From Chrysopilus asiliformis (taxonomy: Eukaryota > Arthropoda > Insecta > Diptera > Rhagionidae): a DNA stretch of 64,000 bases. Made by a program: the position numbers and the translations under genes. Under the pieces are notes generated by a model. The model was not told the DNA's origin. It made no database searches and was given only the letters and a program-made list of their open reading frames with translations. Position 1 is the stretch's first letter, and each line of letters begins with the position of its first letter. The stretch lies in contig OZ035960.1 in NCBI GenBank assembly GCA_964034945.1, positions 83,514,148 to 83,578,147 on the forward strand, read 5' to 3'. This document shows, piece after piece, positions 3,388 to 41,266 of this stretch.

Positions 3388-3393
3388 TTTATT
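3388..3393 (-). promoter_or_regulatory. Possible poly(A) signal of the MADF gene
   Basis: AATAAA on the minus strand about 220 nt after the stop codon. It is the first canonical hexamer I see downstream; base composition makes chance matches likely. Confidence 0.35.
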
Positions 3394-3613: not shown

Positions 3614-4020
3614 TCACGTTTCTCGGTCTGATTTCTCACAGATTTCCGATATAGAGAAGAATCTTTGTTCATTTAATTGTAATTCCGTAATTGTGAAATG
3701 ATCATAATTCGATCGGGGATCTGTTTCGTTAATTATCTGGTACGATAGTTCTTTCGAAATATCGTTGATATTTGATTGGGTTAAATCATTTTGCAAGCAT
3801 ATTTGACTGGATTCTATATTCTGAATGATATTTTGTGGTTCATCTACTGCTTCATATTCATTATTATCATCGCCATCAATTTCAATTATTTCTTCTTGAT
3901 TTGAATTGTTTGCCACTTCGGATATTTCGTCGGAAATAATAATTTCATCGTCTTTTTCGGAGTTAATATTAGTTTTCTGATCCAATCTGCAACGTTTTGG
4001 ACTTTCCTGACCGACATACT
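3614..4020 (-). CDS. MADF gene exon 19 (last): acidic C-terminal tail and stop
   Basis: Residues 1127-1261, ending in TGA. A basic patch (SPKRCR) precedes a strongly acidic region with two hydrophobic-then-acidic runs, IIISDE and IIEIDGDD. These resemble SUMO-interacting motifs (inference). No BESS motif is visible. The acceptor is GGTTTTAG after an A-rich stretch. Confidence 0.85.
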
Positions 4021-7000
4021 CTAAAACCATAATTTTTTTTTTCTAATTATTGAAAATTTGTATTTTTAGACAGTTACCTTTGGATCTTTTGCTATTGGTA
4101 TGAAGACTTGGTATGAATTCAATTGGTGTCACATCGTTAGAGTCTTCAATCAAGGACACTAATGTGATGTTATTTAACTGGGTAGAAGATTTCGCTTTAC
4201 AAATATAAGGCTTTAAAAATTCCATGTCTTTTTCAAAAATTGTTTTGCCCTGACCATTTTGAGGCAATTCAGAAAATTTTATGTATTCGTCTTTGAGAGA
4301 TTCCCACAGTTGTTTAACTTCTTCAACTGAAATAAATTAGAAAAAAAAATCAAAAAATATTCAAAAAAAGCGATTTTTGGGTGCTGTTAGAAATAAAATC
4401 GAGACAAATATTTATTTTATTTTTATGCTTTTATCTCGCTTTTATTTCTGATACACAGAGCCCAAAAAATATTTTTTTTAAAATTTTTATTTTATTTTAT
4501 CCTTTTTAGCCATTTTGTATTTGATTAGCATAAAAATGACGTCTGTCTTTTGCCACGCTTATATATACTTTTAAGTCTTCGAATATATATCCTTACCTTT
4601 GAGATACACTTACGGACTTTTTGATTCTAGAATCGAATTTAGCGAACCCAAAAATCCCCAGATGAAATTTTACCCGGAAAATTTGAGATAATTACGTTAT
4701 GTTAACAGGACCTTCTGTTGTCCTTACAGGATTCTTAACATTAGAATTGGACTCAGCGACACCAAAAACCCCCAGATGAGACTTTTTCCGAAAAATTTGA
4801 AGAAAGGACATTCCCTTACCCTTACAGACTTAACGTCAGAATCGAATTCAGCGATCCCAAAACTCCACACAGGCGAACAAATACGAAGGGAAACTAGGTA
4901 AAGCTTTACAAAATTGAATTAAAAACCTGTAATGGACCAAAGGTGACAATAGCTTCTACAATAACAGGGGTGTAGGTACGGCATACTTTTGGGGCTTAGC
5001 TCGCCGGATGTGGGGGGGTTCTTTCCCTGAATTGCAGAAATGGTCATCACAAATAGTGTACCTACACACACATACTCTCTCATATTTTTAAATTTACGTT
5101 AAAAGGATCGGGAAGGGAAATTATCAACCAAAAATCTTTTTATGCTACATTTCGTGCAGCATCCATTATGCTTTTTTGTATCATCCTAAATTCTGTCAAC
5201 CTTTCACAACATCCACCCACCACCAAAAGAAAACACTCAGCAGATCATTTTAAATTTGCTTATAATCATCTTAATTGATTGTAGAATTATACAAAAAAAA
5301 TAACAATTAAATAAATAAATTTTAACCTAACGATCGCATATAAAAATTTTCTAATAATTTTAGATCTTTAATAAATAACAAACAATAAATAATTTTCAAA
5401 AATTTCGTGTTATGAAATCACTTTCTCCACATATAACTTCGCTTAATTTCGAAGAAACGTTATAGGTAAAAATTGGGTGAATTTTATGGATTTGCTAGCA
5501 CAATGTGGGCCCACCTTATTGCGAGAAAATTCTATAGATTTTTTCTTAAAACCAAAACAGGAATTTTATGTGGGTCCAGTTCACAAACGGTAAATTACCA
5601 GAAGATGAAAAAAACGTGTAAAATTTTGAAAATTTTCTAGTATATATACGGCGCGATCGATGAAAATCCAATCGATGAATTCCAAAAAGATTTGTTAAAG
5701 ATGAAATTTATAATGATGTTCAAGATTAAGCGAGATTCGAAATAATTGTAACTTATACGAATAAATGTTGATTTTATAAATTCTTAATAAAAAAAAGAAA
5801 GAACGAAGAGAAAAAAAAAAAATCAAACGAACAGAAAAAAACCGGGAAAGCTGCTCAGGCTCCCGCCGTCTAGGTTAGAGCACACCTTCGTGTTCACCTG
5901 ATGATTTATCAAATTTTAGCTAATCACGCACTTAAATTTTGCTTAATCTAACCTTACTTGAGCAAAAGTTTCCCTAAGGTGATCGAAGTAAAATCCTTTC
6001 GTTGACCAAAGGTCACTTTTCAAACCATGTGGTGAATATTTTCGTCTTTTCCCAGCCAGAAAGAATTTTTGCGAGCAAGATGATTTTTCTTCAATTCCCT
6101 GGTGATTGCATTTCGCCAAATAGCCGTCACAATCGAAAAATGATTAGAAGAAAATCTTCGCAGCCTCAAATGGGAAATTTTCAGATGAGCAAATCTCGAG
6201 CAAATCTTTTCCTGGGCGCTATTTCAAAATAACTTTTATTAACTAAATAAGCGCATTTTTTTTTTATTTTTCTCACCTTTCCCGGGAAAAATAAAACTTA
6301 ACAAAACTAATCATAACTAAACTAGTCACTACATTAAATAAATTTAATATTGTACAACGTTCGAACGTTCTACATTCTAGGATAACTTTAACTATCTGTT
6401 CTTAGAATTCCGGAAATGTGAAACCAAATATGGCCATAGGAAATGCGTCCATATTTTAATTTTACATTTCTGGATTTCCTGTGGTAGAAGATTTCTAACA
6501 TCCGCATTTGTTATCCCTCTATATTTGAGCACTAAAAATACTTCCAATACATTTTAATTACTTGAAGTAATTCTACTTTTGTGTGTAAGTTTGTGTGTTT
6601 GTAAAAATCATGGCGAAGTTGTCAACAAAATACAAAGTAAGTACATCAATTTTCTAAATTTTTCATTAAAATTTATTAATTCCTAATCTTTTATTTCATA
6701 GGATTTTATGATTAAACAATATCGATCCATTTGTGTCGATCAGAAACATCAAGAGAAACGAGAAATAGCCAAATATCCAGATGAAAAAATGTAAACAAAG
6801 GTAAGATCATTGAAAATCGATTAGAGATGCAAATTTTTAAACTAATAAACTTTTTCTTCATTTCAGAAAGCAAAGGAAACAAAAGAAACGATCATCGATT
6901 GCAACAATAACGATCATCAGCAGAAAAAACAAATTGCAGTGCAAGTAATAACTCACAGTAAGTACGTTTAATACTAAGTTCAGACTGACGCAAAATCACG

Positions 7001-10000
7001 TAATTTTGCGAAATGATTTAGATCTTAAACCAAAGTGTTCACACAGAGGTTAGATTTGACATTTCAACTACAGGATTGCTATGAATTTTAGTGTAGGATT
7101 GCTATGAATTTTAGTAATATGATGAATAATACAATTCCAAACATCGATGAAATATGTGCAAACAGAATTAGACACTTTAGACGACAATGGAAATTATCTG
7201 TAATGAAAATAAACAATTATTTTCCATTTCATATCTAATCACATCAAAAACAAGTCAATTTTTTTTCCCCCGCGTAGGTTGTTTACTAATATATCCTTTT
7301 CGCGTGCGGAACACGGCTTCTTTTTCTTATATTTCCATTTTTCCAATGCATCACAAATGTCAAAACTGATGTACTCAAGAGAGCTGAATGAGTGATGCAG
7401 GGTTGAATTCATTGTTTTTGCTTGATTTCGTTCCTAATTTTGTGGAAATTGCATACTTTTAGTGATTTTTGAAAACCGGTTTATGTACTGGAAATCTCGT
7501 GATTTCGAGCAAGATTTCGTTCAAAATTACGAAAATCTTCAAAATTACGTGATTTTGTGTCGGTCTGAACTTAGTATAAGGTTCATATTGTGGGTGATTT
7601 TGTTATGGTTCCCTTTGCGTAAACGATCGTTCGTTCTTGTGGTGGTAAATTTTTGGTGCTTGTTTGTTTGCTATTGAATTTTTATTCGGTTTTATTTTAA
7701 TTAAGAAAGTGGAAATTTAATTGGATGTGAAATATTTTAAGTTTATTCAAATCAAAAAAAGAAAATAGTTTACAATAATTTTACGGACAGACGCAGACGA
7801 AGTTTAAGATAAAAATTCAAATGTATTGTGTTTGTTGTCTATTTTGCATGTATTTGTGATTAAAATGTGTTTTGTTTACATGTTAATTTTTTGACATTTC
7901 GTGTTTTAATAAATTTTACTAATTTTAGGAATCAATGCGAAGTGCGATTGTTCTTGGATACGGATTTTCTGGACTCTAAAGTTTGATGGATGACGTACTC
8001 AACGGACAGACGCAACTAAGAATCAAATCTGATTAAATCGAAGATAAGTGACAATTTACTTAAATGACAGTTTACTTTCTTTCTTTTCAGCGGCGGCATA
8101 AAATAAAGTTCTACCGGAATGAAACTTCACCCGAAAGGATTAATCTGCTCGACAGAAGGACATCCGGAATTTTCTGAGCTGCTCAAAGAGAGAATCCAGT
8201 CGGCCTTGAAATTCTTTCCTACGGACAGACTCAGGAACGGACTCGCGTCAATAGGAGACGTGTTAAGTATTCGACTTCATTTTCAAGGAAAATTTTTAAT
8301 GATACTTTCCATCGTTTCAGGCAACTGCAACAAACCGTTGAGCGAAGCGTGCACGTTCAGAATTATTGTAGGTATAAATGCAAAACAAAAACATGAGACC
8401 AGCTACAATTCGTCGGCTGAGAATTTAAATCATTGTATGAAATATTTTTATTGTAAAACGAAAATATGTCATAATTTGGTCAAGGAGAGAATTAAGGAGA
8501 AGGCGCTAGAACTAGAAAAGACAAGCGAATTCACTAATACTCCAATTGTAGCTTTGCGAAAAGGAAACCGGAAAATAATAAATATAGTGGCCATTATTTT
8601 TTCTTCGCGAATCGAAAAATAGAGTTTCAAGAGGTTTCGATTTGCTCAGGATCGGATGCAACAGTTAATTCGGTATGAATTGATTCGCGAGAGAATCGAA
8701 AACGAAAAGAATTATTCAGAATTTTAATTTATACGTTTCAATTCGCGCATGATTCAAATGCAAAATAATGTTATTTATCCATTCGAGAATCTCGAACTGT
8801 TTCGTACCCTGAGTATTTGTCTTTAAGTAATTCAATAAGCTTTAAAGACTAGCCCCGAAAAACTCAGGAACTGATTCTAATTCAAAATTCGAAAAACCCG
8901 ACAATTTAATTTTCAAGCGACGAATTACTAGGGGGCTTTAGTAAAATCGCATACCTTCACTCACTCACTCATTCATTCATCACTATATCTCCTGAACCAC
9001 TAAACCGATCACCATGGGTATACGCCCACAGATTCGTCTTACCTCGTAGGGGCTCGCAATTGTGGCCGATTTCTGGCACTCACTGGCGATGAACGAAGCC
9101 GGTGGTGGATGGAAGGGGGATTGAATCGACGAACGACGAGATAAGCCGAATCGGAGAAAATGCGTTGTCGTCGTTGTTTTGCCTAAGACGCAAACACTGA
9201 GTAGATTCAAAAAAAATTATATAAGTTGAAAACAGTCTGGTCTATTAGATTAAATTTAAACCATTTTACTTGACTCTTTAACTTAAGGGATTCTTTCTGG
9301 TGGACTTATGTTGGAGCTGAGCCCCCGACAAATATCTGTCCCAAATTTTCGGCCGATCGGTTCCATAGTTTTCACGCGAAAGAGTAACATACCAGAAAAA
9401 CTAAGCTTAGGATTATCCCTTCCCCTTACTCTCCCCACCTTCAGGGCTACTTTTTTGTGTATCTATGTTTGCGGAACCCCCGATGAATATCTATGCAGAA
9501 TTTCAGGTCAATCAGCTCGGTAGTTTTCACGCGAAAGAGTAACATAGAGGAAAAACTATGTTTCAGATTCACCTTACCTCTCACCTTACTCACCCACCAA
9601 CCGGGCTACTTTTCAATAGGTCTGTGCTACAACTCGACACCCAACGAACATCTGTGCCTATGTTGGAACCAGGCCTACAGCGAACAGACAAACAGATCCC
9701 AACGCATTTTTATATATTAATATGATTGTGTAGATATATACTCACCACCCAAATTTAAATTTTGTGCAATTTTAATCCAAGTTTCTGTTGTTTGATGGCC
9801 AAAGTCATCGACATGTTCGTCATCGTATAAGATAGGATTTTCCTTGACGGCATCGATAACAATTTTTGCTCGCCTATCTTGATGTATGGTGCTAATAAAA
9901 TTGTCCACAAGTTCATCTGATTCACGTTTCGCTCCAGTGTCACTTGTAATTGTTGTTTCGGCATGTTGTTGTAAAAATTCCATATCCATGTGAAATTTTG

Positions 10001-13000
10001 AAGCAAAATGCCCATTGGTATTGAGACGTTTGAATGAAAAATAGCTTTTTTTCAAAAGTTCCCAAAGTGATTGAGCTTCAGCACCTTAAAATACAGTAAT
10101 TAAAGAAATTGAGCTTACTTTATATTAGAAATGAGTCTCGAGAATTCTTTTCATCTAACGGCTACACCGAAACCAATATAATTTCTGCACGATTGTTTTC
10201 ATTTAGTAAAAGTTTTAATTATCAATAACCAAAATAAGTGAAATTTACATTAGAGTCATTACAAGCCACTTTAAGACGTTTTCGTTCGTATGAGCTGGAC
10301 AGTAGCAGCGAACGGACGTGGCTGCATTTTGATCGACACAAACCGCACTACAATTTTCGTATTCCGCGACAAAAAAAAAACAAAACAACGAAAAACCGAA
10401 AACCGTCCGCCGCGTGATATAAAAAAAAAAAAAAATAGTGAAGTGCCAGGGCAAAGGGCTTCTTAAGGCCCTTTTTAACACCTTTCCCGGCTAAGTGGAG
10501 CCTCTGCGGGGTGCAGGGTGCAGGAGCGGTTGGCATCTGGTTGCTTAAGGCTTTTGTACTGAGCAACCGTTAACCGTTTCCAGCTCTTTTGTATCCTCGT
10601 ATACTCCACTTGGCTACTGTTTGTGTCCGTGTTGTCGTTTTGTGTTTTTTGTTGGACCGATGCGGGTAAGTCGAAATTCAAAATTTAATTTTTGCAATGT
10701 TCGCGGAATTAGGGAGAACCATCTTTCTGTTTACATCCACCTTTCCCAAAATAAACCAGAGGTACTGGCTTTGGGTGAGACTAAAGTTGATCGTGATTGC
10801 GACCCAGGTCAATTTCAGGTCAATGGGTATCACCTGGAGCCAGTATTTTTTCGTCAAAGGGGTATCGCAATTTATATCCGCAACGATGTGCCTTACTCAC
10901 TTCTTCCTAACTTAGGAAAATGCGCTAATCCAGAATTTAATTTCATCTGGTTAAAGCTCCATATGCGCAAGCACATCTACCTTTGTTTCATTTATCGAAG
11001 CCCTAATTGTTCCACCGAGAACACGTTGGTCGAGTTGGACAAATTGTCTGTCTCCATCGATGCAATTACTGCAACAAACCCTGACGCTGAAATTGTTGTT
11101 GCGGGTGATTTCAACGTCCACAATGATAAGTGGCTTCCTTTCTCTTGCCATCCTGATCCTGTTGGTTTGCACACTGAACTCTTCGCAGAATCAAACTTGT
11201 TGACGCAAATCGTAGACAAACCAACGAGAATTCCAGATATTGCAGGACACACCCCATATCTGTTGGATTTGTTTTTAACTACAAATCCGTCTAAATATAG
11301 CGTTTCTGTCTTGCCTCCCCTGGGAGGATCTGATCACTGTCTGGTAAGCTGTTCATTTTCCACCGAAAGGCCTCCTAAAAATACAATTAAAGCCCCGCGT
11401 AGGACTGTTTGGCATTTTAAAAAAGCCAACTGGGAGAGCTTGAACCAGTATTTTGCAGCTTACAAGTGGTCTGATTGTTTCAGGGAAGGTGACGTTGACG
11501 TTGCGACTGCAAAGGTCACGAACGTAATCACACTTGGTATGAAGTCCTACATACCGTGCAGCTCCATTGTTGCAAGGTGTGACTCCAACACCTGGTTCAC
11601 GAAAGCGTGTCGCGACGCCATCAAAACAAAAAAGACGGCGTTTTCTGAATTTAGGGGAAACCCTAATGAAGAAACTCGCTTGTCGTTTATAAACGCTCGA
11701 AACACCTCTAAGTCTGTACTACGTCGTGCCAAACATGACTTCGACCAAAAGATGAAGCGGAAAATCTTAACCTGTCCGAAAGGGCAAAAATCCTTTTGGT
11801 CAATGGTAAAAGCGGTAAAAAACAATTTCACAAAATCTTCAACACCTCCACTAATCTGTGATAATGAAGTGGTTGTCGATCCCGTTGGCAAGGCGAACGT
11901 TTTAGCCGCGAAATTCGCAGCGAACTCAAGTCTCCCGGAATCCAACCAAGTACCGCCCCAACCCACCATATCGGAGATTGTCTCTCCAAAACTTTCCATC
12001 CGCAAAAGACAAATAGTTAGAATTCTGCAGGAGATTGACGTGAACAAATCTACAGGACCGGATGGCATTCCCCCCCATGTTTTGAAAAAATGTGCCGTCA
12101 CCTTAGCTGGACCTCTTCGCTCCCTATTTTACCTCAGCTTCTCCAAGGGGATCTATCCCTCTTCTTGGAAAGCAGCTAATGTCCAGCCCATTCCCAAAAA
12201 AGGTGACAAATGCGACCCCTCAAATTATAGGCCTATAACTCTGACTTCTGTACTTGCCAAGGTTATGGAAACTTTAATAAATACCAAAATTACAAATTTT
12301 TTAGAGCGCAATAACATAATCAACGATCGCCAATATGGCTTTCGTGCGCGCCGCTCCACAGGCGATCTTTTGGTCTGCTTGACCGAGCGCTGGAGTAAAA
12401 GTCTCCATAATTTTGGCGAATCAAAAACTATAGCGCTGGACATCTCCAAAGCTTTCGACCGTGTTTGGCATAAAGCTTTGATGGCAAAGATACGAGCTAT
12501 CGGTCTAAATCCTGCAATTTCCAAATGGATTGAGAGCTACCTTTCTGATCGTTCAATACAGGTTGTATTGGATGGTTATAAATCTGATCTCTTCAAAATT
12601 AACTCTGGTGTCCCTCAAGGCTCACTTCTGGCTCCTACGCTTTTCTTAATATTTATCAATGATCTACTATCTCTCACACTCAATCCACTTTATTGTTTCG
12701 CTGATGACAGCTCCCTTGACGCATCCTACCATTTCAGTTCACCTGCAGAATCGAACGCCATTGCAGTTCGATCGAAACGCAGTGAGCAAATTAGATCTTT
12801 GAATTCTGATTTAAACACAATTCTGGCTTGGGGCAGAATCAACCGTGTGGAATTCAACGCATCTAAAACCCAATCAATGCTGTTATCGATGAAATGCGAA
12901 AAATCCCCCGAAACGGTCGAATTTATGAGTGAGTCCATTAGTGACTCAAAAAACATCAGAATGTTGGGCATCGAAATAAATGAGAAGCTCCAATGGAGTG

Positions 13001-31000: not shown

Positions 31001-31671
31001 TTTTTTATTTTTTTTATTTTGTTCTTTTTAGTCTTCGAATATATATCCTTACATTTGAGATGTCCTTACAGGCTTTTTAACTTGAGAATCGTATTCAGCG
31101 AACCCCAAAACCCGCAGAATATATTTTTTCCCGGAACAATTGAGAAAAAGGATAATCACGTTATCCTTACAGGACCTTCCGTTATCCATACAGACTTTTT
31201 AATGACAGATTCGGATTCAGCGACCCCAAAAACCCCCAGAATATATTTTTTTCCGGAAAATTTGGAGAAAGGTATAATCACGTTATCCTTACAGGACCTT
31301 TCGTTATCCTTGCAGACTTTTTAATGGCAGATTCGGATTTAGCGACCTCAAAAACCCCCAGAATAGATTTTTTTCCGGAAAATTTGGAGAAAAGGATAAT
31401 CACGTTATCCTTACAGGGCCTTCCATTATCCTTACAGACTTTTTAATAACAGATTCGGATTCAGTGACCTCAAAAAACCCCCAGAATAGATTTTTTTTCG
31501 GGAAAATTGGAGAAAAGGATAATCACGTTATCCTTACAGGACCTTCCGTTATCCTTACAAGGACGAAGTAGTGAAAATATTGTATTGTCATCGGACTTAT
31601 ATAAGTGTGCAAAATTTCAAGTCAATCGGACAAGTGGAAGTGGGTCAAAATTGGGTTGCAAGATTTGATCT

Positions 31672-31703
<32 letters not shown>

Positions 31704-34700
31704 CGAAGGCAAGCTAAATAAAAGCTTTTAAAAAACAAATTGTACATACCAGTGCCTCGATATTGTACTGATGTGGACCGGTTTCACTAACTAGAATCAC
31801 TTCATCAGATTCTCCATCATCGGCAATATTTAGAACGATGTCATCTCTAAAATTGAACCACAATGAAAATAGTTGAACAAATTTATATTTCATCATATTT
31901 ACGTGTTTTCCTGTCCTGCTAATAAAAATGATAAGGCTTTATTCAAACGATCGTCTACCTGAGGGTTTGTTCGACACCAGATTCTGTGATTATTTAAATA
32001 GAGGCGCTTAAGTAGATTCCACATAACAAAACACCAGTTTCCTATTAATTATTTAAGAATGTATTATTTTATAAAACTCATAACTTTTGTTCTAATATTA
32101 AGTACTTTTTAGATTTTTTTCAGTTATTTATTTTGAATACGCTCTTTTCCAAGGATAATTCGCCTCATTCCGTAAAATATCGGAGGATGCGAAAATATTT
32201 TAAGAAATCTGTAGCGCACGGGCAAAAAGAGGGCGGGATGGAATACCTAATTTGTATTAAACCTTGGCACTTTAAAGGTAATTAAATTTTTTTTGCATGA
32301 AAATTGTAAATAAAAATTTTGCCTGCGGTGTAATTTTTGTTGTATATCGAAGTAAATATTAAGAAACTTCTTTTAACTAGATATTCACAATCAAAAATTG
32401 AGAAAAACCTCTTCTCTTTGATTGGTCTTTCAAAATTTCCAACCATACACAATATTTAGAAAGAGGGGGACGCCAAATACACGTTTTGGGCTGGGCGCCG
32501 CTTCGCCTTGCGCTGCGGGCCGCAGTTTAATTTATGAGGAATACACATTTACCTATTACCTATTACTAGCCGTGTTAGCCGTCGAGTTTGCTAGCCTTGC
32601 ATTTTAGAATAGAGTTTGCCAGCCTTGCATTTTAGAATAGTTTGAACGGAAAAAGACTACAAAAAAATTTAAAATAAATTGTGTAGATTTCAACTTAAAG
32701 GTATATATTTAGACTCCATACATGTAAAATTCACATGTAAGTCATAGTCAAAAATTTTTGCAGCAAGAATAGCATAAAGTAGGTATAAAAGTCAGAAAAA
32801 TAAAAATAAAATTCAAGTATTGGACTAGACTTCAAACTGGACTTTCAAAGTGAATATGTATGATTCTTTGACTCACTAAATTCATATTCATGTTGATTCA
32901 TGGCCGAGTCTAACTCTGGTGAATCAACTTTGAATTTTGAATCATTTTAGATTTGTTTCTCTGTGAAGCGGACGAATTGCGAATGGTGCGAAAATTTTAT
33001 TTTATAGTTGGTATTTCTAGGGTGAAATTTTTAAATGCGACAAATAAAAATTGTAGGTAATAAGAAGATTGACAGACAGTCGCTAGAATCGGTATTTTTT
33101 TTATAGTTCCAGCCAGAGCTTAGGGGAAGACCCTTTAATGCCGAAGCACAGCTCAGGATGGTCGGAAGGACAAAAGGAGATGTCGGTTTATGTTCTCCTT
33201 GAACTTCTGCGGGTTATAAGCCGGGGGGAACACTTTGGATGATAGATCGTTCCAAAGTCTTGTTGTTCCCGGAATAAAGGAATCCCTAAACTTTACTGTA
33301 CGAAAACGGGGAGGCTCAAGGAAGAAATCGCTGCACGAGAGGGTCTAGGGAAAACATACCGTGGAGGGATAAGTTGGGATTTTAATTTTAATCTTCATGA
33401 TTCAAACGAATCCCAAATGAATCATTCTTTAAGCTGAGTGATTTTGCCCACCACTAGTGGTCACGAAGCGTTATAAAGGTTTAGCACACATGCTTCAAGA
33501 CGTTCAAGCGTATTTTGTGCACTGAAATGTCAACGCTAGCGAAAGGGGCAAAGCGCACTTGTGGTTCCATTATTAAGCAAATAAGAATCAAATGTCATTA
33601 TATATGTAAGTTAAATTTTCTAAAAAAAATATACTATAATGAAATAAATTTAGTTAATAAATATTGTTATATAATTCAACCATATACCAGAGCGCTCAAT
33701 TTGTATTCCAATTCTTGTCCATGTAAATTTATATGAGTTTTCCGAATAAACCTTGTCATCACCGCTGTTATACAAAAATGGACTGTTTTGAACACATTTT
33801 ATTAGTTTAAACAAAAGATTTATCGTGTCGCAATTCACAATATTTAATTTCACTATGTCAGTTTCATTACCCATGGCGACTACTTCAAATCCATTTGGAG
33901 CGTTAGGAAATCTGTAAAAAAAATCATTTAAAAATATTATAATTTAAAGCATACCATAAAAAGACTTACAAATGTTTAATATGGGGCCATAAGAAATGCA
34001 GCCTTTTTTCTTCTTTAGTAAAAGGCAATTCAGGCTTCTCCTGGAGTTGAAATCGTTCTGTTAATGCCTCGACATATTGATTTCGTAAATAAAGCCACTT
34101 TTGAAAACAACTTTTCACTGTCAGATAATAAAAATAAATTATATTTTATATAAAAAAAGTAATATGTGTGCTTTTGGCAAGTACTATAGTTTTAATCACA
34201 CGTTGCTTATTTATTATATTTATATAAGAAAGAAAACATAACACGATTGGAATCAAAATCTAAATCCAAATTTGCTTTTTACGAGTCAATTCAAAAGTAG
34301 CTGAGTATAATGGTAAGATATTTGAACAGTACATGACTTTCTGAAGTAAACAGCATATCACTTTTGAAAGAGATAGCTGTCAAACCAGCTGTCATCTGTC
34401 AAAGTGTGGTAGTCATTGGGGGATTTCCGTTTTTGGCACCAGAGTCATGGCACCGGGGCAATTTGCTATCTGTCAAAAATCAAGTCTGCTACCAAGAGTG
34501 ATGATCTGTGTTCGAGTTTGCCGGAGTGAAGAACTGTCAGAACCTTCATAATGGGAGATTGAAGGTCAATTCTTGGATTAGGTTTTGCTGTTATTCATCA
34601 ATTATTGAAAGAATTTAATGAATATGATGCTGCAGAATTGGGAGCTGAGGATATGGAGATTATTTTAATTATATGAGCTCTGCTATTTAAAGAATCAAAT

Positions 34701-37700: not shown

Positions 37701-40700
37701 AATGTGTATTTTTAGCCGTCACTCGCCCCCCTTGCCCCCTCCAGGGGTCCTCAAACTTTGTATGAAACTTTTTTCTGGGGGGTGGTAGGGGGGTGTGTGG
37801 TACCACAAATGAAAGGTAATGAAGAGTACATTCCAATAATATATAGCATGATGGGATTTCCCCCCTCACCCTTCGATTTATACCCCTTTTATACCCCTTC
37901 GTGGGGTAAATCGAAGGGTGAGGGGGGAAATACCATCATGCTATATATTTTTGGAATGTACTCTTCATTACCTTTCATTTGTGGTACCACATACCCCCCT
38001 ACCACCCCCCAGAAAAAAGTTTCATACAAAGTTTGAGGACCCCTGGAGGGGGCAAGGGGGGCGAGTGACGGCTAAAAATACACATTTTGGATAGGGGATG
38101 CCTCCCTCTATCCCTCCCTATACACCAAAAATCTGTAGCGTCATTGTCGCTAAACTGAACTCTTGCCAAAATACTAAAACGTATGTCATTTATCGCGATC
38201 TGTCACCTATTTAGCACCACCTGACAAGGTCGCCGTAGAACATTTTTTTCTTAGTTGGACCAAGATCTAGAGGCTGCAATAAATTTTGTCCCGTTAACTC
38301 CTCGTTTTTTTTTAACAACGAAACCGCGGTATAAAACGCGATCTGTCACCCATTTAGCACCACCTGACAAGGTCGCCGTAGAACATTTTTTTCTTAGTTG
38401 GACCAAGATCTAGATGCTGCAATAAATTTTGTCCCGTTAACTCCTCGTTTTTTTTAACAACGAAACCGCGGTATAAAACGCGATCTGTCACCCATTTAGC
38501 ACCACCTGACAAGGTTGCTGTAGAAGAATTTTTTCTTAGTTAGATCAAGATCCAGGTATTCAAACATATTTCGTCCCGTCAACTGTTCGTTGTTATTTTT
38601 TGTTCTACGGCTCCCGGGCGGAGAGTACGGGCTTAAAATGTTTTTCAGGCGATAAAAAAATACGTGTCGCTTAGTTTTCGGTTTACTATATATAACATAT
38701 CCAAAAATGAGTAAACTTGGCATGGTCGGGTTCGCGGCCTTTCCTTTTGAGTGAATAAATTTCGAACCACGTACTATGTCTATGATGTCAAACCATCAAC
38801 CAGCCAAAGAAATTTGTATGGTGTAGTTACCACGACAACGGCATTGTCGATACTTATTTCTTTCGAAATGAGGACAGATTTCGCGTAATGGTCAATGGAC
38901 ACTGTTATCGGGCAATGTTCATTGATTTTGTATACATTAACAGACTGACAGACAGAAGCATATTTTTGTAGAACGACTCCAATTGATCATGAAAAATGTT
39001 TTTTAGACAAAAGAGGTTGACACTAATACAATATTTTCTATATACTACGTATCTAGTATGAGAAAGTAAAATACGTAAATGTAAATACCTGATATATTTA
39101 GAACATCAGAGATATCTTCCCAGTGTTTTACAGCATGAACAACTAGCGAACGACCGTCGTACAGAGCGGGTATTTTTTTAACTTCCACTATTAAAAAGTT
39201 TTCCTGTAAAATTATTGTAGTTAGTAAAAAATGTAAAAAATATAATTTAACAGTTTTACATCCTTCTCGGTGAATTCATTGCATGATGTTTGCACAGTAG
39301 AACAATCAGCTGCAAACCTGAAAAAAAAATTTTTTTTTTTTAAATATATTCGATAACATTTTTTGGTAAAATTTTACTTTACAGCCGCGGTTCGCTAGGA
39401 CCTTCATATTTGTTCCTAGTTTTTGGAGTCAAATATGTAGGTTCAAAAACCAAAAAAAAAAATTTAGACGCTCAAACATAGGGGAGAGCCGGAAGCCCCC
39501 CAAATTGTTTTCGCGAAAACTAGAAATAGCTATAAATTTTTTAAAAAGTGCGTTAGGTGCTGATGTTTACTTCTGATATTCCCTATAAGTTACATGAATT
39601 ATTACTGTCAATATCGTTATTATTAAAAAAATGTTGTTAGATATATGCCCCTGTGTCGATTAGGAATATTAGATTTTACCTTCATATTTTAATTTTCTCT
39701 TGGAATCTTGGGGTCTTCCGAGATTCCCTGATATTGAGCTGTATAGAATCTTGCGTTTTTACTTCTACTTGTATTATCATATTTATTATTCCTATAGTTA
39801 TTATTGTGTCTTTTACTATTATTGTTGTTATAATCATTGTTATTAGAATTATTATTTCTATTGTTATTGTTAAAATTGTTATTATAATTAAGATTACTGT
39901 TGTTATAGTTATTATTTCGTATATAATTATTAACATTATTTCTGTGTTATTATAATTATATTGCCTTGTGGTCTATTATTTTGGTAACGTTTTTGTTTAT
40001 TTTTGCTTTGGTAAATTTTTTTCTCGCCTAAAGTTTTTTCTACTTCGGTTAAAGAGACTGTAATCGCAATCGTTATTCTGAAGTGGGCTTTAGTGGCCGT
40101 GTTGGATATCGTAATTGCAATCGTTAGTCTGAATTGGGCTTTACTGGTGGTATTGGAGATTTATTTATTTATTAAGATGACCACACAGAGTAAATTTGAT
40201 GTGTAACATTTTTAATAAAATGTTTAATATGTCAAAATAAAATTGAGATTAAAGTGAATGTCGCACATAAATGCGAAACCTATTTCAGACCTAATTGGTA
40301 CTTTAGAACAAAACAGTTCGCGCAAAAACGCGACCTATGCTCAAGGTAATTCGCAAGGCCGCGGTATTTTTAAGGCAACACAAAATTTTTGTCTAAATGG
40401 GTACTGGGCCGATTGTGTCAGAACATTTCGTTCAAAAAAGAGTTTTCACTGGAATATGACAAATTATTTTGAATATTGAGTCAACTTATAGCTCTCAGCA
40501 AGTATAATACTAATATATCGAAAAAGTCCAGCAGGTTCCGTTAAAAATGGAATTTTTGTATTTCTTGTAAATGTTATAAAAAGAAAAGTTAAAAAAAACA
40601 CAAAAACTTGTAATGGAGTTTATTTATATTAAACTCATTTTATACAGCAAGTTGAGTCGACTTGAATGGCAGTCTGCGTATCGCAGGCGAGATTCGAACC

Positions 40701-41266
40701 ACCGATCCCCGGATTAGAGGGTAAGTGCTTTATTATTTGAGCCACACTGGTACGGCAATACCCTTATAAATACAAATCTAGTAAAGTTCAGTAAATTTTT
40801 TTTAAAGCAACATTTTATTTATTTTTTGATATTTTATATAGTCGTCAAATACTCACAATTTTTGGTAGAATGGCCAAAGAAAACTCATATCCTGTGAATA
40901 AGGAAATGCACGACAAATGGGTAGTTTTCTTGTCAAATGCTTCGTATATTCTTGTCTTAACCCTGTCCATTTTACCATACAATATGTAACTGAAAAAATG
41001 TTTTTTAAATATTTGCATTTAATATGATATTGTATTTTCATACCTGATAATTTGGTAATGGTTGCGATTTTGTCCCATATGGCCCTAATATGGCTGATTT
41101 TACCATAATTTTCACATTTTGGGTCATAAATAATTGGATGCAGTCGCACGAGCCCTATCAGTGCAGCATTTTGTGATTTCTACATTAATTTTCCATTTCA
41201 GAGATAGGTCACTATAAAAATTATGAAAATTACCTTTTTTCGGGGATTTGATGTTGAAGCTTCCAT
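3614..41266 (-). CDS. Multi-MADF-domain protein, 20-exon gene (span of coding sequence)
   Basis: Seen: 20 exons joined at readable GT-AG sites give an open frame of 3786 nt (1261 residues plus stop; 1161 without the duplicated exon). Nine MADF domains, or ten with the duplicate, lie in tandem. First-half Trp motifs in order are IWDKI, HWEDI, TWTRI, EWSNI, TWNII, IWSFI, LWQKV, AWINV, TWIKI. Second-half motifs are KWTGLRQEY, KWLYLRNQY, MWNLLKRLY, LWKYLKDQH, FWKQIRFKY, LWFKLSKSY, QWKLLKQIY, LWELLKKSY, LWESLKDEY. Distal motifs include MSFLWPF, LHFLWPH, MAFLYPV, MEFLKPY. Known: MADF is the Myb/SANT-like DNA- or chromatin-binding domain of Adf-1, usually one per protein and often paired with a BESS motif. 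I see no BESS here. Inferred: a nuclear DNA- or chromatin-binding scaffold; the target is unknown. Exon entries below give each part. Confidence 0.88.
4078..4326 (-). CDS. MADF gene exon 18: second half of MADF 9
   Basis: Residues 1044-1126 plus one base. Contains QLWESLKDEYIKF and DMEFLKPYI, then a linker with basic HTNSKRSKG. It lies 5419 bp from exon 17; the donor is AAAG|GTAACT, then a 57-bp intron. Confidence 0.9.
4370..4900. repeat. Family B repeat, diverged copy (hairpin plus 122-bp-type units)
   Basis: 4385-4500 is a diverged inverted-repeat head (TTTTATCTCGCTTTTAT and TCTGATACACAGAG phrases). It is followed by about two units with the family signature (CCTTACAGG, gcgacc...aaaaacccccag). 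Compare 30755-31740. Lies in the intron between exons 17 and 18. Confidence 0.65.
4900..6600. other. Intronic AT-rich sequence
   Basis: Part of the 5.4-kb intron between exons 18 and 17. I see no domain-bearing open frame; the 76-residue frame at 6002 has no visible homology. It holds A-rich stretches and short repeats only. Confidence 0.4.
6610..8622 (+). other. Possible small nested gene, opposite strand to the MADF gene
   Basis: Several splice-like structures line up on the plus strand: ATGGCGAAGTTG... ending AAA|GTAAGT near 6637; an acceptor TTTCATAG near 6702 with donor CAAAG|GTAAGA near 6801; an acceptor TTTCATTTCAG near 6867 with donor ACA|GTAAGT near 6959; and acceptors near 7929 and 8090. 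The first two exons give only 39 codons before a stop, so coding is unproven. It could be a noncoding or decayed gene. Confidence 0.25.
8119..8622 (+). CDS. Unrecognised 167-residue open frame
   Basis: Starts at ATG 8119, just after a good acceptor (TTCTTTTCAG near 8090). The product is Lys/Glu-rich with Cys scattered in the middle. I recognise no domain. A GTGTTAAGT...TTTCAG pair at about 8260-8319 could be a small intron inside it. It may be the last exon of the nested transcript, or chance. Confidence 0.25.
   Translation: MKLHPKGLICSTEGHPEFSELLKERIQSALKFFPTDRLRNGLASIGDVLSIRLHFQGKFLMILSIVSGNCNKPLSEACTFRIIVGINAKQKHETSYNSSAENLNHCMKYFYCKTKICHNLVKERIKEKALELEKTSEFTNTPIVALRKGNRKIINIVAIIFSSRIEK
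8930..9720. repeat. Unclassified interspersed repeat with internal duplication
   Basis: A phrase including TTTTCACGCGAAAGAGTAAC occurs twice (about 9370 and 9525) within duplicated blocks of roughly 170 bp, alongside ACTCACTCACTCATTCATTC. The region ends near TTTTTATATATTAATA. The layout suggests a non-autonomous element with tandem internal units; class not determined. Confidence 0.5.
9746..10084 (-). CDS. MADF gene exon 17: second half of MADF 8 plus first half of MADF 9
   Basis: Residues 931-1043 plus one base (numbering with both exon 16 copies). Contains SLWELLKKSY and DMEFLQQH, a polar linker, then VIDAVKENPILYD and TWIKIAQNL. Ends in phase 1 (GGT G|GTGAGT). Confidence 0.9.
10240..13633 (+). 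mobile_element. LINE A, apparently full-length retrotransposon copy
   Basis: A 5' untranslated region of about 400 bp, one long EN-RT open frame and a poly(A) tail at about 13606-13632. It lies in the intron between exons 16' and 17, antisense to the MADF gene. I see no separate ORF1 upstream, so the 5' end may be incomplete. The 5' boundary is approximate. Confidence 0.75.
10660..13575 (+). CDS. LINE A endonuclease-reverse transcriptase
   Basis: An intact frame of 971 residues from ATG 10660; the frame is open upstream to 10621 but without an ATG. Order: APE-type endonuclease (VRGIREN at the start, LALGETKV, VAGDFNVHNDKW, GGSDH at about 222-226), then reverse transcriptase with NYRPITLTSVLAKVMETLI, ALDISKAFDRVWHKAL, GVPQGSLLAPTLFLIFINDL and the catalytic box CFADDSSL (FADD at about 680-683, a common variant of YADD). 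The C terminus has LWNNLPSDVF. Known: such proteins nick target DNA and copy their own RNA by target-primed reverse transcription. No stops or frameshifts, so it may be active. Clade (Jockey/CR1 group) is a guess. Confidence 0.9.
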   Translation: MRVSRNSKFNFCNVRGIRENHLSVYIHLSQNKPEVLALGETKVDRDCDPGQFQVNGYHLEPVFFRQRGIAIYIRNDVPYSLLPNLGKCANPEFNFIWLKLHMRKHIYLCFIYRSPNCSTENTLVELDKLSVSIDAITATNPDAEIVVAGDFNVHNDKWLPFSCHPDPVGLHTELFAESNLLTQIVDKPTRIPDIAGHTPYLLDLFLTTNPSKYSVSVLPPLGGSDHCLVSCSFSTERPPKNTIKAPRRTVWHFKKANWESLNQYFAAYKWSDCFREGDVDVATAKVTNVITLGMKSYIPCSSIVARCDSNTWFTKACRDAIKTKKTAFSEFRGNPNEETRLSFINARNTSKSVLRRAKHDFDQKMKRKILTCPKGQKSFWSMVKAVKNNFTKSSTPPLICDNEVVVDPVGKANVLAAKFAANSSLPESNQVPPQPTISEIVSPKLSIRKRQIVRILQEIDVNKSTGPDGIPPHVLKKCAVTLAGPLRSLFYLSFSKGIYPSSWKAANVQPIPKKGDKCDPSNYRPITLTSVLAKVMETLINTKITNFLERNNIINDRQYGFRARRSTGDLLVCLTERWSKSLHNFGESKTIALDISKAFDRVWHKALMAKIRAIGLNPAISKWIESYLSDRSIQVVLDGYKSDLFKINSGVPQGSLLAPTLFLIFINDLLSLTLNPLYCFADDSSLDASYHFSSPAESNAIAVRSKRSEQIRSLNSDLNTILAWGRINRVEFNASKTQSMLLSMKCEKSPETVEFMSESISDSKNIRMLGIEINEKLQWSDHIFKIAKEASQCLGFLGRCKKYFAPVDVLNIYKSYIRPRLEYNSHIWAGAPKTVLQLLDRIQKRAIRLIGDKSLTDSLPSLEHRRSVGVLSIFYKYFNGKCSTEISQLIPPRYIFPRPSRAAARAHDFFLEPPRFRTVKFRGSFIPRTTRLWNNLPSDVFPPDYNPQKFKENINRHLLLSFQPSRAVLRH
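13634..13906 (+). repeat. Family A repeat, single arm (unit 1)
   Basis: Starts at GGGGTACCCTCCC right after the LINE A poly(A) and runs through CCATTAACGAACTTAGCC, a CAGACGGACAGACAGACGGA microsatellite, and CGTTTGTAACGCC-type sequence (as GGCGTTACAAACGG), to CCATACGGGTATAAAAA. It matches the right arm of the foldback at 26487-27489. Confidence 0.8.
13920..14460. repeat. Unclassified repeat with CTGAACTTACACC phrases (duplicated at 17968-18508)
   Basis: The motif CTGAACTTACACC or close variants recurs several times in direct and inverted form between the family A arm and exon 16'. Probably a decayed non-autonomous DNA element. No coding potential. Confidence 0.4.
14836..15135 (-). CDS. MADF gene exon 16', duplicate of exon 16
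   Basis: Same sequence as 18884-19183, shifted by 4048 bp, with the same splice sites. Because the exon is 300 nt and symmetrical (1-1), splicing both copies adds 100 residues without changing frame. The join of exon 16 to 16' builds a complete extra MADF (first half of MADF 8 plus second half of MADF 7). Whether both exons are used, or whether the duplication is real, cannot be told from sequence alone. Confidence 0.75.
15333..17681 (+). pseudogene. LINE A, second copy truncated by the duplication breakpoint
   Basis: Identical in translation to the LINE A protein from the residues just before GGSDH onward (open frame to 17623), with the poly(A) run at about 17654-17680. The endonuclease N terminus is absent, so it is not autonomous. 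The truncation comes from the tandem duplication, not from 5'-truncated retrotransposition. Confidence 0.88.
17682..17954 (+). repeat. Family A repeat, single arm (unit 2 duplicate)
   Basis: Same as 13634-13906, carried along by the 4048-bp duplication. Confidence 0.8.
18884..19183 (-). CDS. MADF gene exon 16: second half of MADF 7 plus first half of MADF 8
   Basis: A 300-nt exon, phase 1 at both ends. Contains CEKQWKLLKQIYDIR and KINFLREI, then LVDTIKKYPVLYD and ETAWINV. It lies in unit 2 of the 4048-bp tandem duplication and has a twin at 14836-15135. The acceptor is TATTTTCAG; the donor is AATG|GTAAGT. Confidence 0.9.
19381..20093. other. Intronic sequence between exons 16 and 15
   Basis: A short duplication (TTACCTTTACACCCG, about 19430-19455) and otherwise plain AT-rich intron. 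The open frames here have no visible homology. Confidence 0.4.
20094..20363 (-). CDS. MADF gene exon 15: second half of MADF 6 plus first half of MADF 7
   Basis: Residues 641-730 plus one base. Contains CIVLWFKLSKSY and MTFMQSC, then TLIRNVKLYPDLTY and LWQKVAASV. Here the inter-domain intron seen earlier in the gene is absent, giving a 270-nt exon with phase 1 at both ends. The acceptor CTCAAAG has a weak pyrimidine tract. Confidence 0.88.
20432..20679 (-). CDS. MADF gene exon 14: linker and first half of MADF 6
   Basis: Residues 558-640 plus one base. A linker of about 35 residues precedes LLEEIKHYPILYD and SIWSFIAERI. Ends in phase 1 (CCA G|GTATTT); the next intron is 68 bp. Confidence 0.9.
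20732..20882 (-). CDS. MADF gene exon 13: second half of MADF 5
   Basis: Residues 508-557 plus two bases. Contains CAEFWKQIRFKYIE and EMAFLYPVV. A 52-bp intron separates it from exon 14. Confidence 0.9.
21505..22277. mobile_element. Possible MITE with CAATAGTTGCGTT ends
   Basis: Near 21505 the plus strand reads CAATAGTTGCGTTTTTTAAT, and near 22240-22277 the reverse complement phrases ATTAAAAAAGCG and AACGCAACTATTG appear. No clear target duplication, so boundaries and class are uncertain. Confidence 0.4.
23600..23876. mobile_element. piggyBac-like terminal remnant
   Basis: The right end, read on the minus strand, is TTAACCCTCCGTCTACCATT followed by GGGGTCAATTTGACCCC. TTAA plus CCC and a nearby inverted repeat is the usual piggyBac terminus. 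A partial partner, CTACCGTTGGGGTCAATT, is near 23617. The left TTAA end is not intact. Confidence 0.45.
23873..23964. mobile_element. 84-bp hairpin MITE flanked by TTAA
   Basis: GCGGCGACTTTTC... at 23877 pairs with ...GAAAAGTCGCCGC ending at 23960, with arms of about 36 bases. TTAA occurs on both sides (23873-23876 and 23961-23964), which fits piggyBac-type insertion. The left TTAA is shared with the neighbouring piggyBac-like end. Confidence 0.6.
24235..24401 (-). CDS. MADF gene exon 12: first half of MADF 5
   Basis: Residues 452-507 plus one base. Contains FVRAVQEYPIIYE and CSETWNIIG. The acceptor is CATTTTAG and the exon ends in phase 1 (AAA G|GTAATT). Confidence 0.9.
24572..24618. repeat. 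Short hairpin
   Basis: ATAACAGCCAATT... and ...AATTGGCTGTTAT form an inverted repeat around an A-rich loop. No target duplication noted. Confidence 0.5.
25140..25430. repeat. Family B repeat fragment
   Basis: Starts AAAGCTTTTATTTAGCTTGC, followed by a GTCTGTCTGTTTGTC run and a GATTGACTTGAAACTTT palindrome, and ends in the GTCCTTGTAAGGATAACGG signature. It mirrors the right end of 30755-31740 in the opposite direction. Confidence 0.65.
25639..25810 (-). CDS. MADF gene exon 11: second half of MADF 4
   Basis: Residues 395-451 plus two bases. Contains LLWKYLKDQH. The distal end reads MALVL instead of MxFL, so it is diverged. The acceptor is TTTTTTCAG; the donor is GA|GTAAGT in phase 2. Confidence 0.85.
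26163..26310. mobile_element. Small inverted-repeat element, copy 1
   Basis: CCTCTATTCTTGAATGCGGC at 26163 and ATTCTGGAATACGCCGG near 26299 are mutually related ends. A partner in the opposite orientation lies at about 28783-28875. Possibly two MITE copies, or two ends of one larger element spanning 26163-28875. Confidence 0.45.
26487..27489. mobile_element. Family A foldback, DINE-1-like
   Basis: A 1-kb near-perfect inverted repeat. It starts TTTTTATACCCGTATGGTG and ends in its complement CACCATACGGGTATAAAAA. Each arm carries CGTTTGTAACGCC or its complement, a CCGTCTGTCTGT tetranucleotide-type run, and AACGAACTTAGCC. The axis is near 27030. Inference: the TATACCC...GGGTATA start and the CGTTTGTAAC core recall Drosophila DINE-1/INE-1 (Helitron-related) sequences. 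No gene inside. Confidence 0.8.
27644..28564. mobile_element. 921-bp MITE with 27-bp terminal inverted repeats
   Basis: Ends are TTAGGGGAAAGTGGTCACC plus TTCGTAC, and their complement at 28538-28564. Inside, GGGGCACATTCGTAC occurs several times near both ends, in direct and inverted form. The flanks allow a TA duplication inside TTA/TAA, which would fit a Tc1/pogo-type element (inference). Confidence 0.7.
28783..28875. mobile_element. Small inverted-repeat element, copy 2 (opposite orientation)
   Basis: Reads CCGGCGTATTCCAGAATACC at the start and GCCGTATTCAAGAATAGAGG at the end, the mirror of 26163-26310 with a shorter middle. Confidence 0.45.
28876..29222. other. Intronic sequence before exon 10
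   Basis: AT-rich, with no supported feature between the small inverted-repeat element and the exon 10 donor. Confidence 0.4.
29223..29322 (-). CDS. MADF gene exon 10: first half of MADF 4 (degenerate)
   Basis: Residues 362-394 plus one base. It keeps helix 1 and EWSNISKRLGI but lacks the P-x-L-Y-D motif, reading EEPSSFLKN instead. This is the most shortened first half in the array. It ends in phase 1 like the others. Confidence 0.82.
29865..29900 (+). other. Hammerhead-ribozyme-like motif, probably from a Penelope-like element
   Basis: CTGAAGA is followed by a perfect 7-bp stem (CGACCGA...TCGGTCG) around a six-base loop, then AAACGTC. This has the layout of a hammerhead core (CUGANGA, stem II, GAAA), but with A where U is normal, so activity is doubtful. 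Such motifs sit in the terminal repeats of Penelope-like elements. The surrounding element (about 29700-30060) has no open frame. Confidence 0.45.
30345..30655 (-). repeat. R600 repeat, diverged inverted copy
   Basis: Minus-strand phrases such as TCTCGATAACGG, AAAAACCCGTCATTTTTTGAG and GGTGTATCTCG correspond to those at 100-330 and 36480-36650. Clear but imperfect similarity. Confidence 0.6.
30755..31740. repeat. Family B repeat, most complete intronic copy
   Basis: 30755-31003 is an inverted repeat with arms of about 110 bp (AAGCTTTTA..., TGTATCACAAATATAAAAGC, GGACGCTG) around a short loop. Then about four units of 122 bp each carry ATCACGTTATCCTTACAGG and GATTCGGATT. It ends in (CAGACAGA)n and CGAAGGCAAGCTAAATAAAAG. 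The order hairpin, tandem units, microsatellite, end is shared with other copies. It ends right at the donor of exon 9. Confidence 0.75.
31750..31846 (-). CDS. MADF gene exon 9: acidic linker
   Basis: Residues 329-361, an acidic linker (DDIVLNIADDGESDEVILV) between MADF 3 and 4. Enters in phase 2 and ends in phase 0 (CTG|GTATGT). The intron begins next to a family B repeat boundary. Confidence 0.83.
31903..32041 (-). CDS. MADF gene exon 8: second half of MADF 3
   Basis: Residues 283-328 plus two bases. Contains CFVMWNLLKRLY and LSFLLAGQ, a somewhat divergent end to the domain. The donor is AC|GTAAAT in phase 2, and a 56-bp intron follows. Confidence 0.85.
32042..33094. other. Intron between exons 8 and 7
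   Basis: Contains a tandem pair of about 28 bp (AGCCTTGCATTTTAGAATAG, 32590-32640) after a short GC-rich stretch (32480-32530). No open frame with homology. Confidence 0.45.
33095..33372 (-). pseudogene. LINE A fragment, 3' end only
   Basis: Minus-strand sequence matches 13320-13610 of LINE A, including the GTTCCAAAGTCTTGTTGTTC region and the end of the open frame, with a poly(A) seen as T on the plus strand near 33090. Scattered differences and lost frame. A 5'-truncated older copy. Confidence 0.8.
33688..33911 (-). CDS. MADF gene exon 7: linker and first half of MADF 3
   Basis: Residues 208-282 plus one base. About 30 residues of linker come first, then LIKCVQNSPFLYN and TWTRI. The usual LYD is LYN here. 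It is separated from exon 6 by a 58-bp intron and ends in phase 1. Confidence 0.88.
33970..34117 (-). CDS. MADF gene exon 6: second half of MADF 2
   Basis: Residues 159-207 plus two bases. Contains CFQKWLYLRNQYVEAL and RLHFLWPHIK. The acceptor is CTGACAG; the donor is TT|GTAAGT in phase 2. Confidence 0.9.
34828..34954. repeat. 127-bp near-perfect hairpin
   Basis: Arms of about 58 bases (GGGTGATGTGAATAAAAAGA... and its complement ...CACATCACCC) around ATTGCATACAGA. It lies in the intron between exons 6 and 5. Could be a MITE or, when transcribed, a small-RNA hairpin precursor (inference). No target duplication seen. Confidence 0.7.
35340..35560. repeat. Family C repeat, diverged fragment
   Basis: GAGTGGATTCCAAAAATATA and CAGCATAATGGG correspond to GAGTACATTCCAATAATATA and AGCATGATGGG in the foldback at 37457-38615, with clear divergence. 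Confidence 0.5.
35877..36232. repeat. (CAGTCTGT)n microsatellite, about 44 copies
   Basis: An 8-bp unit repeated over about 356 bp with few changes (TATCAGTC at 35919-35930, one GGCAGTC). It makes long meaningless open frames because no frame has a stop. It sits at the edge of an R600 repeat copy. Confidence 0.95.
36233..36957 (+). repeat. R600 repeat, copy 2 with microsatellite head
   Basis: From the end of the (CAGTCTGT)n array through GCGCCACGAAATTTTATAGG to sequence that matches 1-588. A short inverted pair (GTTGACCACAACTGATATTTTT at 36940 with its complement near 37100) suggests a foldback terminus. Confidence 0.75.
37457..38615. mobile_element. Family C foldback element, 1.16 kb
   Basis: The left arm starts GGGAGCCGTAGAACAAAAAA; the right arm ends in its complement. 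The axis is near 37892, inside CCCTTTTATACCCCTTCG. The arms are GC-rich compared with surroundings (runs of G/C at 37720-37800). The right arm is longer because a block of about 142 bp starting CGATCTGTCACC is repeated (38196, 38339, 38481). No transposase frame and no clear target duplication. Confidence 0.8.
38196..38530. repeat. 142-bp tandem repeat inside the foldback right arm
   Basis: Two full units and a partial one, each with CCACCTGACAAGGT and TTTTTTCTTAGTT. The left arm has only one copy, so expansion followed the fold formation. Confidence 0.75.
39089..39203 (-). CDS. MADF gene exon 5: first half of MADF 2
   Basis: Residues 121-158 plus one base. Contains VEVKKIPALYD and HWEDI. 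Ends in phase 1 (TCA G|GTATTT). The following 4971-bp intron holds the foldback, the (CAGTCTGT)n array and a hairpin. Confidence 0.9.
39260..39317 (-). CDS. MADF gene exon 4: linker between MADF 1 and 2
   Basis: A 58-nt exon encoding a short polar linker (FAADCSTVQTSCNEFTEKD). It enters in phase 2 and leaves in phase 0. Reading continues in frame from exon 3 and into exon 5 across a 56-bp intron. Confidence 0.82.
39740..39960. repeat. Low-complexity ATT-rich tract
   Basis: Degenerate (ATT/GTT)n with no clear unit. It produces Ile/Val-rich false open frames on both strands. Confidence 0.8.
40060..40155. repeat. Short tandem duplication of about 67 bp
   Basis: GTAATCGCAATCGTTATTCTG... is repeated as GTAATTGCAATCGTTAGTCTG... 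with TGGGCTTTA following in both. Confidence 0.6.
40600..40758 (-). mobile_element. tRNA-derived SINE-like sequence
   Basis: The minus strand reads CGTACCAGTGTGGCTCAAAT (A-box-like) and GGTGGTTCGAATCTCGCC (B-box GGTTCGAATC) about 45 nt apart, then an unrelated tail with CAAGTCGACTCAACTTGC. It has tRNA spacing, but the acceptor stem does not fold convincingly, so a SINE is likelier than a tRNA gene. Confidence 0.55.
40857..40989 (-). CDS. MADF gene exon 3: second half of MADF 1
   Basis: Residues 57-100 plus two bases. Contains KWTGLRQEY and the distal motif DMSFLWPFYQK. The acceptor is TTTTTTCAG; the donor is TT|GTGAGT in phase 2. Confidence 0.9.
41044..41179 (-). CDS. MADF gene exon 2: first half of MADF 1
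   Basis: Residues 12-56 plus one base. Contains LVRLHPIIYD and IWDKI, the conserved helix 1 and Trp motifs of MADF. It ends in phase 1 (TCA G|GTATGA) and is separated by only 54 bp from the second half of the domain. Confidence 0.9.
41234..41266 (-). CDS. MADF gene exon 1 (start codon)
   Basis: Eleven codons, MEASTSNPRKK, ending in phase 0 at an AAG|GTAATT donor. The ATG has A at -3. The 54-bp intron that follows ends at ...TGTAG before exon 2. This ATG is preferred because the upstream minus-strand sequence is a pyrimidine tract or TATA-like stretch and not coding sequence. A farther 5' untranslated exon is possible, since TTTTTTTTCAG lies 15 nt upstream. Confidence 0.75.

Follow-up and report, generated by a model that had tools for sequence, protein, structure and literature searches.

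A gene model encoding a tandem array of MADF domains, the Myb/SANT-like DNA- and chromatin-binding domains that often occur singly in a protein, lies on the minus strand of the window, meaning the whole stretch of 64,000 nucleotides analysed here (C1:83514148-83578147 of a 429-Mb genome in 42 contigs). Read from 41266 down to 3614, 20 exons join into a single frame of 3786 nt encoding 1261 amino acids, with a sole, terminal stop and with GT-AG ends at all 19 introns, which exactly rebuilds the phase-keeping model of the original prediction (Table 1). Stop triplets make up 0.0576 of the sense-strand triplets over the gene span, so that about 67 would be expected per 1160 codons where none was observed; as the exons were chosen for their openness, this count is merely a guide. 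The least certain exon is exon 4, top-ranked among several candidates and followed by a weak donor (GTAAAA), and a further 5' exon is possible, an acceptor-like TTTCAG lying directly upstream of the ATG. The 54-nt intron within MADF 1 (40990-41043) holds no in-frame stop, and its retention would insert 18 residues in the domain. Rfam and tRNA scans gave no match.

Table 1. Positions in the window of the exons of the MADF array gene and of associated features.
Feature	Position	Strand	Content
Exon 1	41234..41266	-	ATG at 41266, phase 0 out
Exon 2	41044..41179	-	MADF 1 front half
Exon 3	40857..40989	-	MADF 1 back half, phase-2 donor
Exon 4	39260..39317	-	Linker
Exon 5	39089..39203	-	MADF 2 front half
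Exon 6	33970..34117	-	MADF 2 back half, phase-2 donor
Exon 7	33688..33911	-	Linker and MADF 3 front half
Exon 8	31903..32041	-	MADF 3 back half, phase-2 donor
Exon 9	31750..31846	-	Acidic linker
Exon 10	29223..29322	-	MADF 4 front half, the lowest-scoring front half
Exon 11	25639..25810	-	MADF 4 back half, phase-2 donor
Exon 12	24235..24401	-	MADF 5 front half
Exon 13	20732..20882	-	MADF 5 back half, phase-2 donor
Exon 14	20432..20679	-	Linker and MADF 6 front half
Exon 15	20094..20363	-	MADF 6 back half and MADF 7 front half, phase 1-1
Exon 16	18884..19183	-	MADF 7 back half and MADF 8 front half, phase 1-1
Exon 17	14836..15135	-	Identical copy of exon 16, source of the tenth MADF
Exon 18	9746..10084	-	Last-but-one MADF back half and last MADF front half, phase 1-1
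Exon 19	4078..4326	-	Last MADF back half and start of tail
Exon 20	3614..4020	-	Acidic tail, stop codon
AATAAA polyadenylation-type signal	3388..3393	-	221 nt beyond the stop codon
Tandem duplication, copy 1	11283..15333		Unit of 4048 bp
Tandem duplication, copy 2	15331..19381		Unit of 4048 bp
LINE-type frame	10549..13575	+	Endonuclease and reverse transcriptase; in intron 17, 3' part within the duplication

A search of the joined protein against Pfam with hmmscan, the check suggested with the original prediction, matched PF10545 in nine stretches when exon 17 was left out (E 5.1e-56, 187.4 bits for a cut-off of 22) and in ten when it was included (E 7e-65). Excised singly, domains 1, 2, 7, 8 and 9 (five of nine) exceed the 22-bit cut-off, and the other four (3, 4, 5 and 6) lie just below it, at 20.1-21.6 bits. 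Both tryptophan motifs, Trp-x-x-(I/V) and W-x-x-(L/I)-(R/K/S), are present in the same order in all nine array domains, as had been claimed, and the distal FL motif, previously attributed to most of them, is found in seven, with LV in domain 4 and FM in domain 6. Pairwise identity among the array domains is as low as 12-31%, yet one proline and the two tryptophans are invariant, and the array is therefore taken as old, exon 17 excepted. Searched against the six frames of the window, a nine-domain profile recovers the exons; everything else exceeds E 0.2 apart from one weak plus-strand match to a back half (24105-24209, E 0.0077), which we regard as chance. The best match to a solved structure was a GT-1 trihelix at E 0.08, and structure prediction on domain 1 with its 54-nt intron retained, the one complete domain found readable directly from the DNA, was unusable (pLDDT 46.6).

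The net charges of domains 1 to 9 are +9, 0, +4, 0, -1, +4, +3, -4 and -7, domain 1 having a pI of 9.75. The array ends in an acidic C-terminal tail of 176 residues (pI 4.2) that matches no Pfam family at E up to 10, and BESS, C2H2 zinc finger, ADD and transposase families are absent among the eight families listed at that threshold for the whole protein.

The number of domains depends on an exact tandem duplication. Its two copies are identical at all 4051 compared bases and overlap by 3 bp at their junction, and within the 4,048-bp unit lie exon 16/17, intron sequence and the 3' portion of a LINE-type frame. When 1,031 bp including exon 17 were searched against the genome, full-length matches occurred at the two tandem copies only; the 28 other matches were short (about 43-109 bp) and all fell outside exon 17. 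The MADF count is thus ten as assembled and nine distinct. The ambiguity was already present in the original prediction of nine or ten domains, which missed the exact duplication as its cause. The duplication would be either a very recent event or an assembly doubling of the stretch.

Continuity of the array across its introns

Each of exons 15, 16, 17 and 18 completes one MADF with its back half and then opens the following MADF with its front half, so that domain 6 and all domains after it are locked together and cannot form separate genes. Further upstream, domain 2 is joined to domain 3 by an intron of 58 nt, domain 3 to its linker by one of 56 nt and domain 5 to domain 6 by one of 52 nt, lengths that leave no room for a gene end plus a new promoter. 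Junctions 1/2, 3/4 and 4/5 are supported by the agreement of phases and splice sites. The earlier reading of a single gene with a MADF array of this size is thus well supported by the sequence, through bridging exons, introns of 52-58 nt and matching phases.

A division of the exons over two or three adjacent genes, with boundaries between domains 1/2, 3/4 or 4/5, appears improbable. Each of these junctions does hold an intron of 1.2-2.4 kb, exon 12 carries an in-frame Met ahead of domain 5, and retention of the phase-2 introns brings a stop directly after a complete domain at five junctions out of five. These stops, however, arise by construction from the combination of phase 2 with a near-consensus donor and hence do not constitute independent evidence; moreover, phases agree across every junction, exons 4, 5, 9 and 10 lack a Met from which a gene could begin at domain 2 or at domain 4, and the remaining junctions are spanned by exons or by the short introns. 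It is very improbable that the locus is a decayed pseudogene whose frame survived by chance: the gene is known from genomic sequence alone and a retroelement frame sits in its intron 17, but 1261 codons free of internal stops, consensus ends at every intron and a tryptophan pair retained in each of the nine domains argue against decay. Within a single gene, retained phase-2 introns would allow clean shorter protein forms.

Intron anatomy of the array and of PIF/Harbinger-type loci

All nine distinct domains are interrupted by a phase-1 intron that falls at one shared codon (column 55 of their alignment), 11 residues past the first invariant tryptophan and 7 ahead of the second. A phase-2 intron follows the domain 6 residues past the FL motif in four of five cases (exons 3, 6, 8 and 13), domain 4 being the different one. 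Exons 15-19 are all phase 1-1, and duplicating any one of exons 15-18 therefore adds a whole in-frame domain.

A genome search with PF10545 gave at least 150 matches over the cut-off (150 scored of 1779 first-look candidates, all 150 passing), and such a search detects exons rather than genes and is biased towards uncut domains. We nevertheless identified seven loci of the same genome (L016, L017, L018, L022, L023, L024 and L026) where a MADF is cut at the codon and phase of the array, by introns of 51-54 nt. They represent seven of the ten genome matches spanning 303-309 nt, a length with room for a short intron (all ten were fetched), and seven of 32 fetched MADF places, a sample partly selected by length. 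The intron pattern was applied in a strict form to all loci and in a relaxed form to nine; the three other matches of 303-309 nt (L019, L020 and L021) did not show it. A candidate eighth locus, L008, was excluded, its match being 258 nt long and containing a TGA. The idea that only the array has the intra-domain intron, encouraged by an initial genome list that favoured uncut domains, is refuted by these cut transposon-type MADFs.

DDE_Tnp_4, a PIF/Harbinger-type transposase family, is present at all seven cut loci. A phase-2 donor (GTAAGT or GTAAGA) lies 7 residues past the FL motif in four of them (L018, L022, L023 and L024), and none was seen after the MADF in L016, L017 and L026. Two pairs are near-copies at different chromosomal places, L023/L024 (compared as L001/L002) and L016/L017 (MADF only), as is expected of mobile elements. 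Other loci have an uncut MADF, for example L005, which also has DDE_Tnp_4. The array thus resembles PIF/Harbinger-type gene 2 in its MADF, in the same-codon phase-1 intron (seven of seven) and in the phase-2 donor after the MADF (four of seven), and it fits gene 2 by the same-codon cut when this trait, defined in the present analysis, is taken as the criterion. The elements differ in having one MADF, a nearby DDE_Tnp_4 and in part near-copies, whereas nine or ten MADFs make up the array, which was found in one copy and with no transposase within 30 kb. Frames with uncut MADFs also occur in clusters, four in about 9 kb (G000 C2:40999808-41008971) and three in about 7 kb (C1:2744692-2751772), which could be tandem genes or repeats.

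A tree was computed from 33 MADF sequences, namely nine from the array, five cut and 19 uncut, omitting L028 (identical), L017 and L024 (near-copies), L006 and L008 (stops) and L019-L021. The 19 uncut MADFs fall on one side of a branch (support 84/66; 85% of 200 bootstrap trees), with the array and the cut elements opposite. Of the 200 bootstrap trees, 18% unite the array domains in one group and 0% do so for the cut elements; constraining either set to one clade was not rejected (p-AU 0.484 for the array, 0.174 for the cut elements). Six array rows have long branches, for which the tree program warns of false joins, and a large divergence separates the array domains from the sampled elements. 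The tree, weak alone, is consistent with the intron evidence.

Copy number and surroundings

Searched against the genome, domains 6-9 gave six matches from 13 candidates and domains 1-5, linkers included, 12 matches from 15 candidates, all of them inside the array gene. The gene is thus single-copy at the sensitivity of these searches, which detect close relatives and likewise leave the distant transposon MADFs unlisted. The array profiles detected no further MADF at E 0.1 in the 30 kb flanking the window at each end. With five transposase queries, tblastn found no DDE_Tnp_4 transposase at E 0.01 in the window and 30 kb each side; all five control loci were matched by the same queries. Protein database searches returned no homologue for the nine-domain protein at E 0.001 (7996 candidates scored), nor for the nine-domain alignment (106 candidates) or the exon-18 frame (2 candidates) at E 0.01, results that are uninformative on rarity, and a scan of viral contigs revealed no relative.

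About 4.8 kb past the array stop codon lies a 5-aminolevulinate synthase frame with ALAS presequence and aminotransferase domains (L040:7301-8791), a possible synteny anchor for array orthologues. On the other side, about 23-29 kb upstream of exon 1, a Helitron-type open frame of 1705 residues combines Helitron_like_N with a PIF1 helicase (L043:772-5886). The window also contains two more LINE-type elements, at 51494-54855 (+) and 58181-61091 (-), in which the frames for endonuclease and reverse transcriptase lie in separate pieces, and a direct repeat of about 700 bp (42701-43397 and about 49721-50417, offset 7020). A short tandem repeat at 35785-36338 reads SLSVCQSV in three frames, and the same repeat in L045 gives open frames that reach about 1,650 residues.

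Origin and function of the array

In insects, MADF proteins form a large class of chromatin and transcription factors that evolves fast, and 55 MADF genes are reported in Drosophila melanogaster (PMC10573801). The original statement of a single MADF in characterised MADF proteins is incomplete, as four are described for HMR (PMC8412352), three for dADD1 (PMC10671109, PMC4249797) and two for Mzfp1 (PMC11229372). Four is the most found in one protein in the accessible parts of the published accounts examined, and longer arrays may be in subscription papers or animal protein databases; neither an array of the present size nor the shared two-intron cassette was found in the same material.

Drosophila HMR is like the array in having several MADFs of mixed charge in one protein (PMC8412352) and is set apart by domain count, four against nine distinct or ten assembled. 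Drosophila dADD1-b/c also has tandem MADFs, and an intron-retaining dADD1 transcript is predicted to shorten them (PMC4249797, PMC10671109); its three MADFs are accompanied by an N-terminal ADD, whereas no ADD-type family is among the eight listed for the array at E up to 10. Mzfp1 and its paralogues likewise have tandem MADFs of opposite charge (PMC11229372), but two of them joined to a C2H2 zinc finger cluster, which the array lacks among its eight listed families. MADF-BESS proteins such as Stonewall and CP60 share the MADF and add a C-terminal BESS, for which the array has no match. Host MADF genes derived from PIF elements are on record (PMC9710019, PMC10027918). Those co-domesticated in Anopheles and Lepidoptera, whose PIF origin may be likened to that proposed for the array, adjoin a domesticated transposase, and arrays go unmentioned in the accessible part of that account (PMC9710019); the array has no transposase within 30 kb.

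With slightly better than even confidence, we favour the reading that this is a single-copy host gene of nine MADFs (ten if the duplication is real) and an acidic tail, grown from a transposon-type two-exon cassette and acting as a multivalent chromatin scaffold. The repeating cassette would consist of a front half, a phase-1 intron, a back half and a phase-2 intron, an organisation that PIF/Harbinger-type elements of the same genome still carry, and the array would have grown by repeated in-frame duplication of it. Descent from such a cassette is suggested by the common intron anatomy, and the direction from transposon to host by the literature; the shared intron may instead be older than both array and elements, with capture from host to transposon. 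DNA binding has been ascribed to basic MADFs, and the binding of basic proteins, histones among them, to acidic MADFs (PMC5982830, reporting Maheshwari 2008), the third MADF of HMR, predicted acidic, is reported to mediate protein contacts (PMC8412352), and recruitment of the acetyltransferase KAT2B by the PIF-derived ADF-1L is reported to depend on the MADF (PMC11893794). From this reasoning and the domain charges we infer that the array probably functions as a multivalent scaffold, where basic domains 1, 3, 6 and 7 would grip DNA, neutral or acidic domains (2, 4 and 5, and most strongly 8 and 9) would grip chromatin proteins, and the tail would recruit partners. Overall, the front would be mainly DNA-gripping and the back chromatin-protein-gripping.

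Other functions can be imagined for the same architecture. The MADFs may have lost DNA binding, the array then acting purely through protein-protein contacts as an HMR-like scaffold or adaptor; we hold this to be rather unlikely, though it has points in its favour, since five of nine domains are neutral or acidic, down to -4 and -7 in the last two, HMR offers the precedent of its third MADF (PMC8412352), and the MADF pair of Mzfp1 is reported to have failed to bind the DNA tested (PMC11229372). The basic character of domains 1, 3, 6 and 7, above all of the strongly charged first, speaks against it. Diverged transposon MADFs might also have been kept by the host for genome defence, as a reader or decoy that binds PIF/Harbinger ends or captures transposases. 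The intron anatomy common to PIF/Harbinger-type MADF genes, the many MADFs of this genome (at least 150 over the cut-off among 150 scored of 1779 first-look candidates) and the reported cooperation of the MADF proteins of PIF elements with transposase (PMC9710019) fit such a role, which we nonetheless judge unlikely, the array domains being far diverged from the sampled elements. Slightly less likely still, a captured PIF/Harbinger MADF cassette could have grown exon by exon into a reader of nine or ten modules, whose diverged MADFs would work like a zinc-finger array and recognise distinct transposon families or their transposases, with modules still being gained (exon 16/17).

The intron anatomy common to the array and to PIF/Harbinger-type elements, absent from the original prediction and found in this follow-up, bears on the family in several ways. 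Exon cuts matching those of related jumping genes suggest that the array grew from a captured transposon gene, and the shared double-intron anatomy could mark PIF/Harbinger ancestry independently of fast-changing sequence. Single-exon duplication of phase 1-1 exons offers a simple and testable route of array growth, with exon 16/17 as a candidate event (no difference in 4051 bases). Most descriptions of MADF proteins give them one to four of these domains. An array of nine with mixed charge would be a natural test of the role of valency and charge in binding DNA versus protein.
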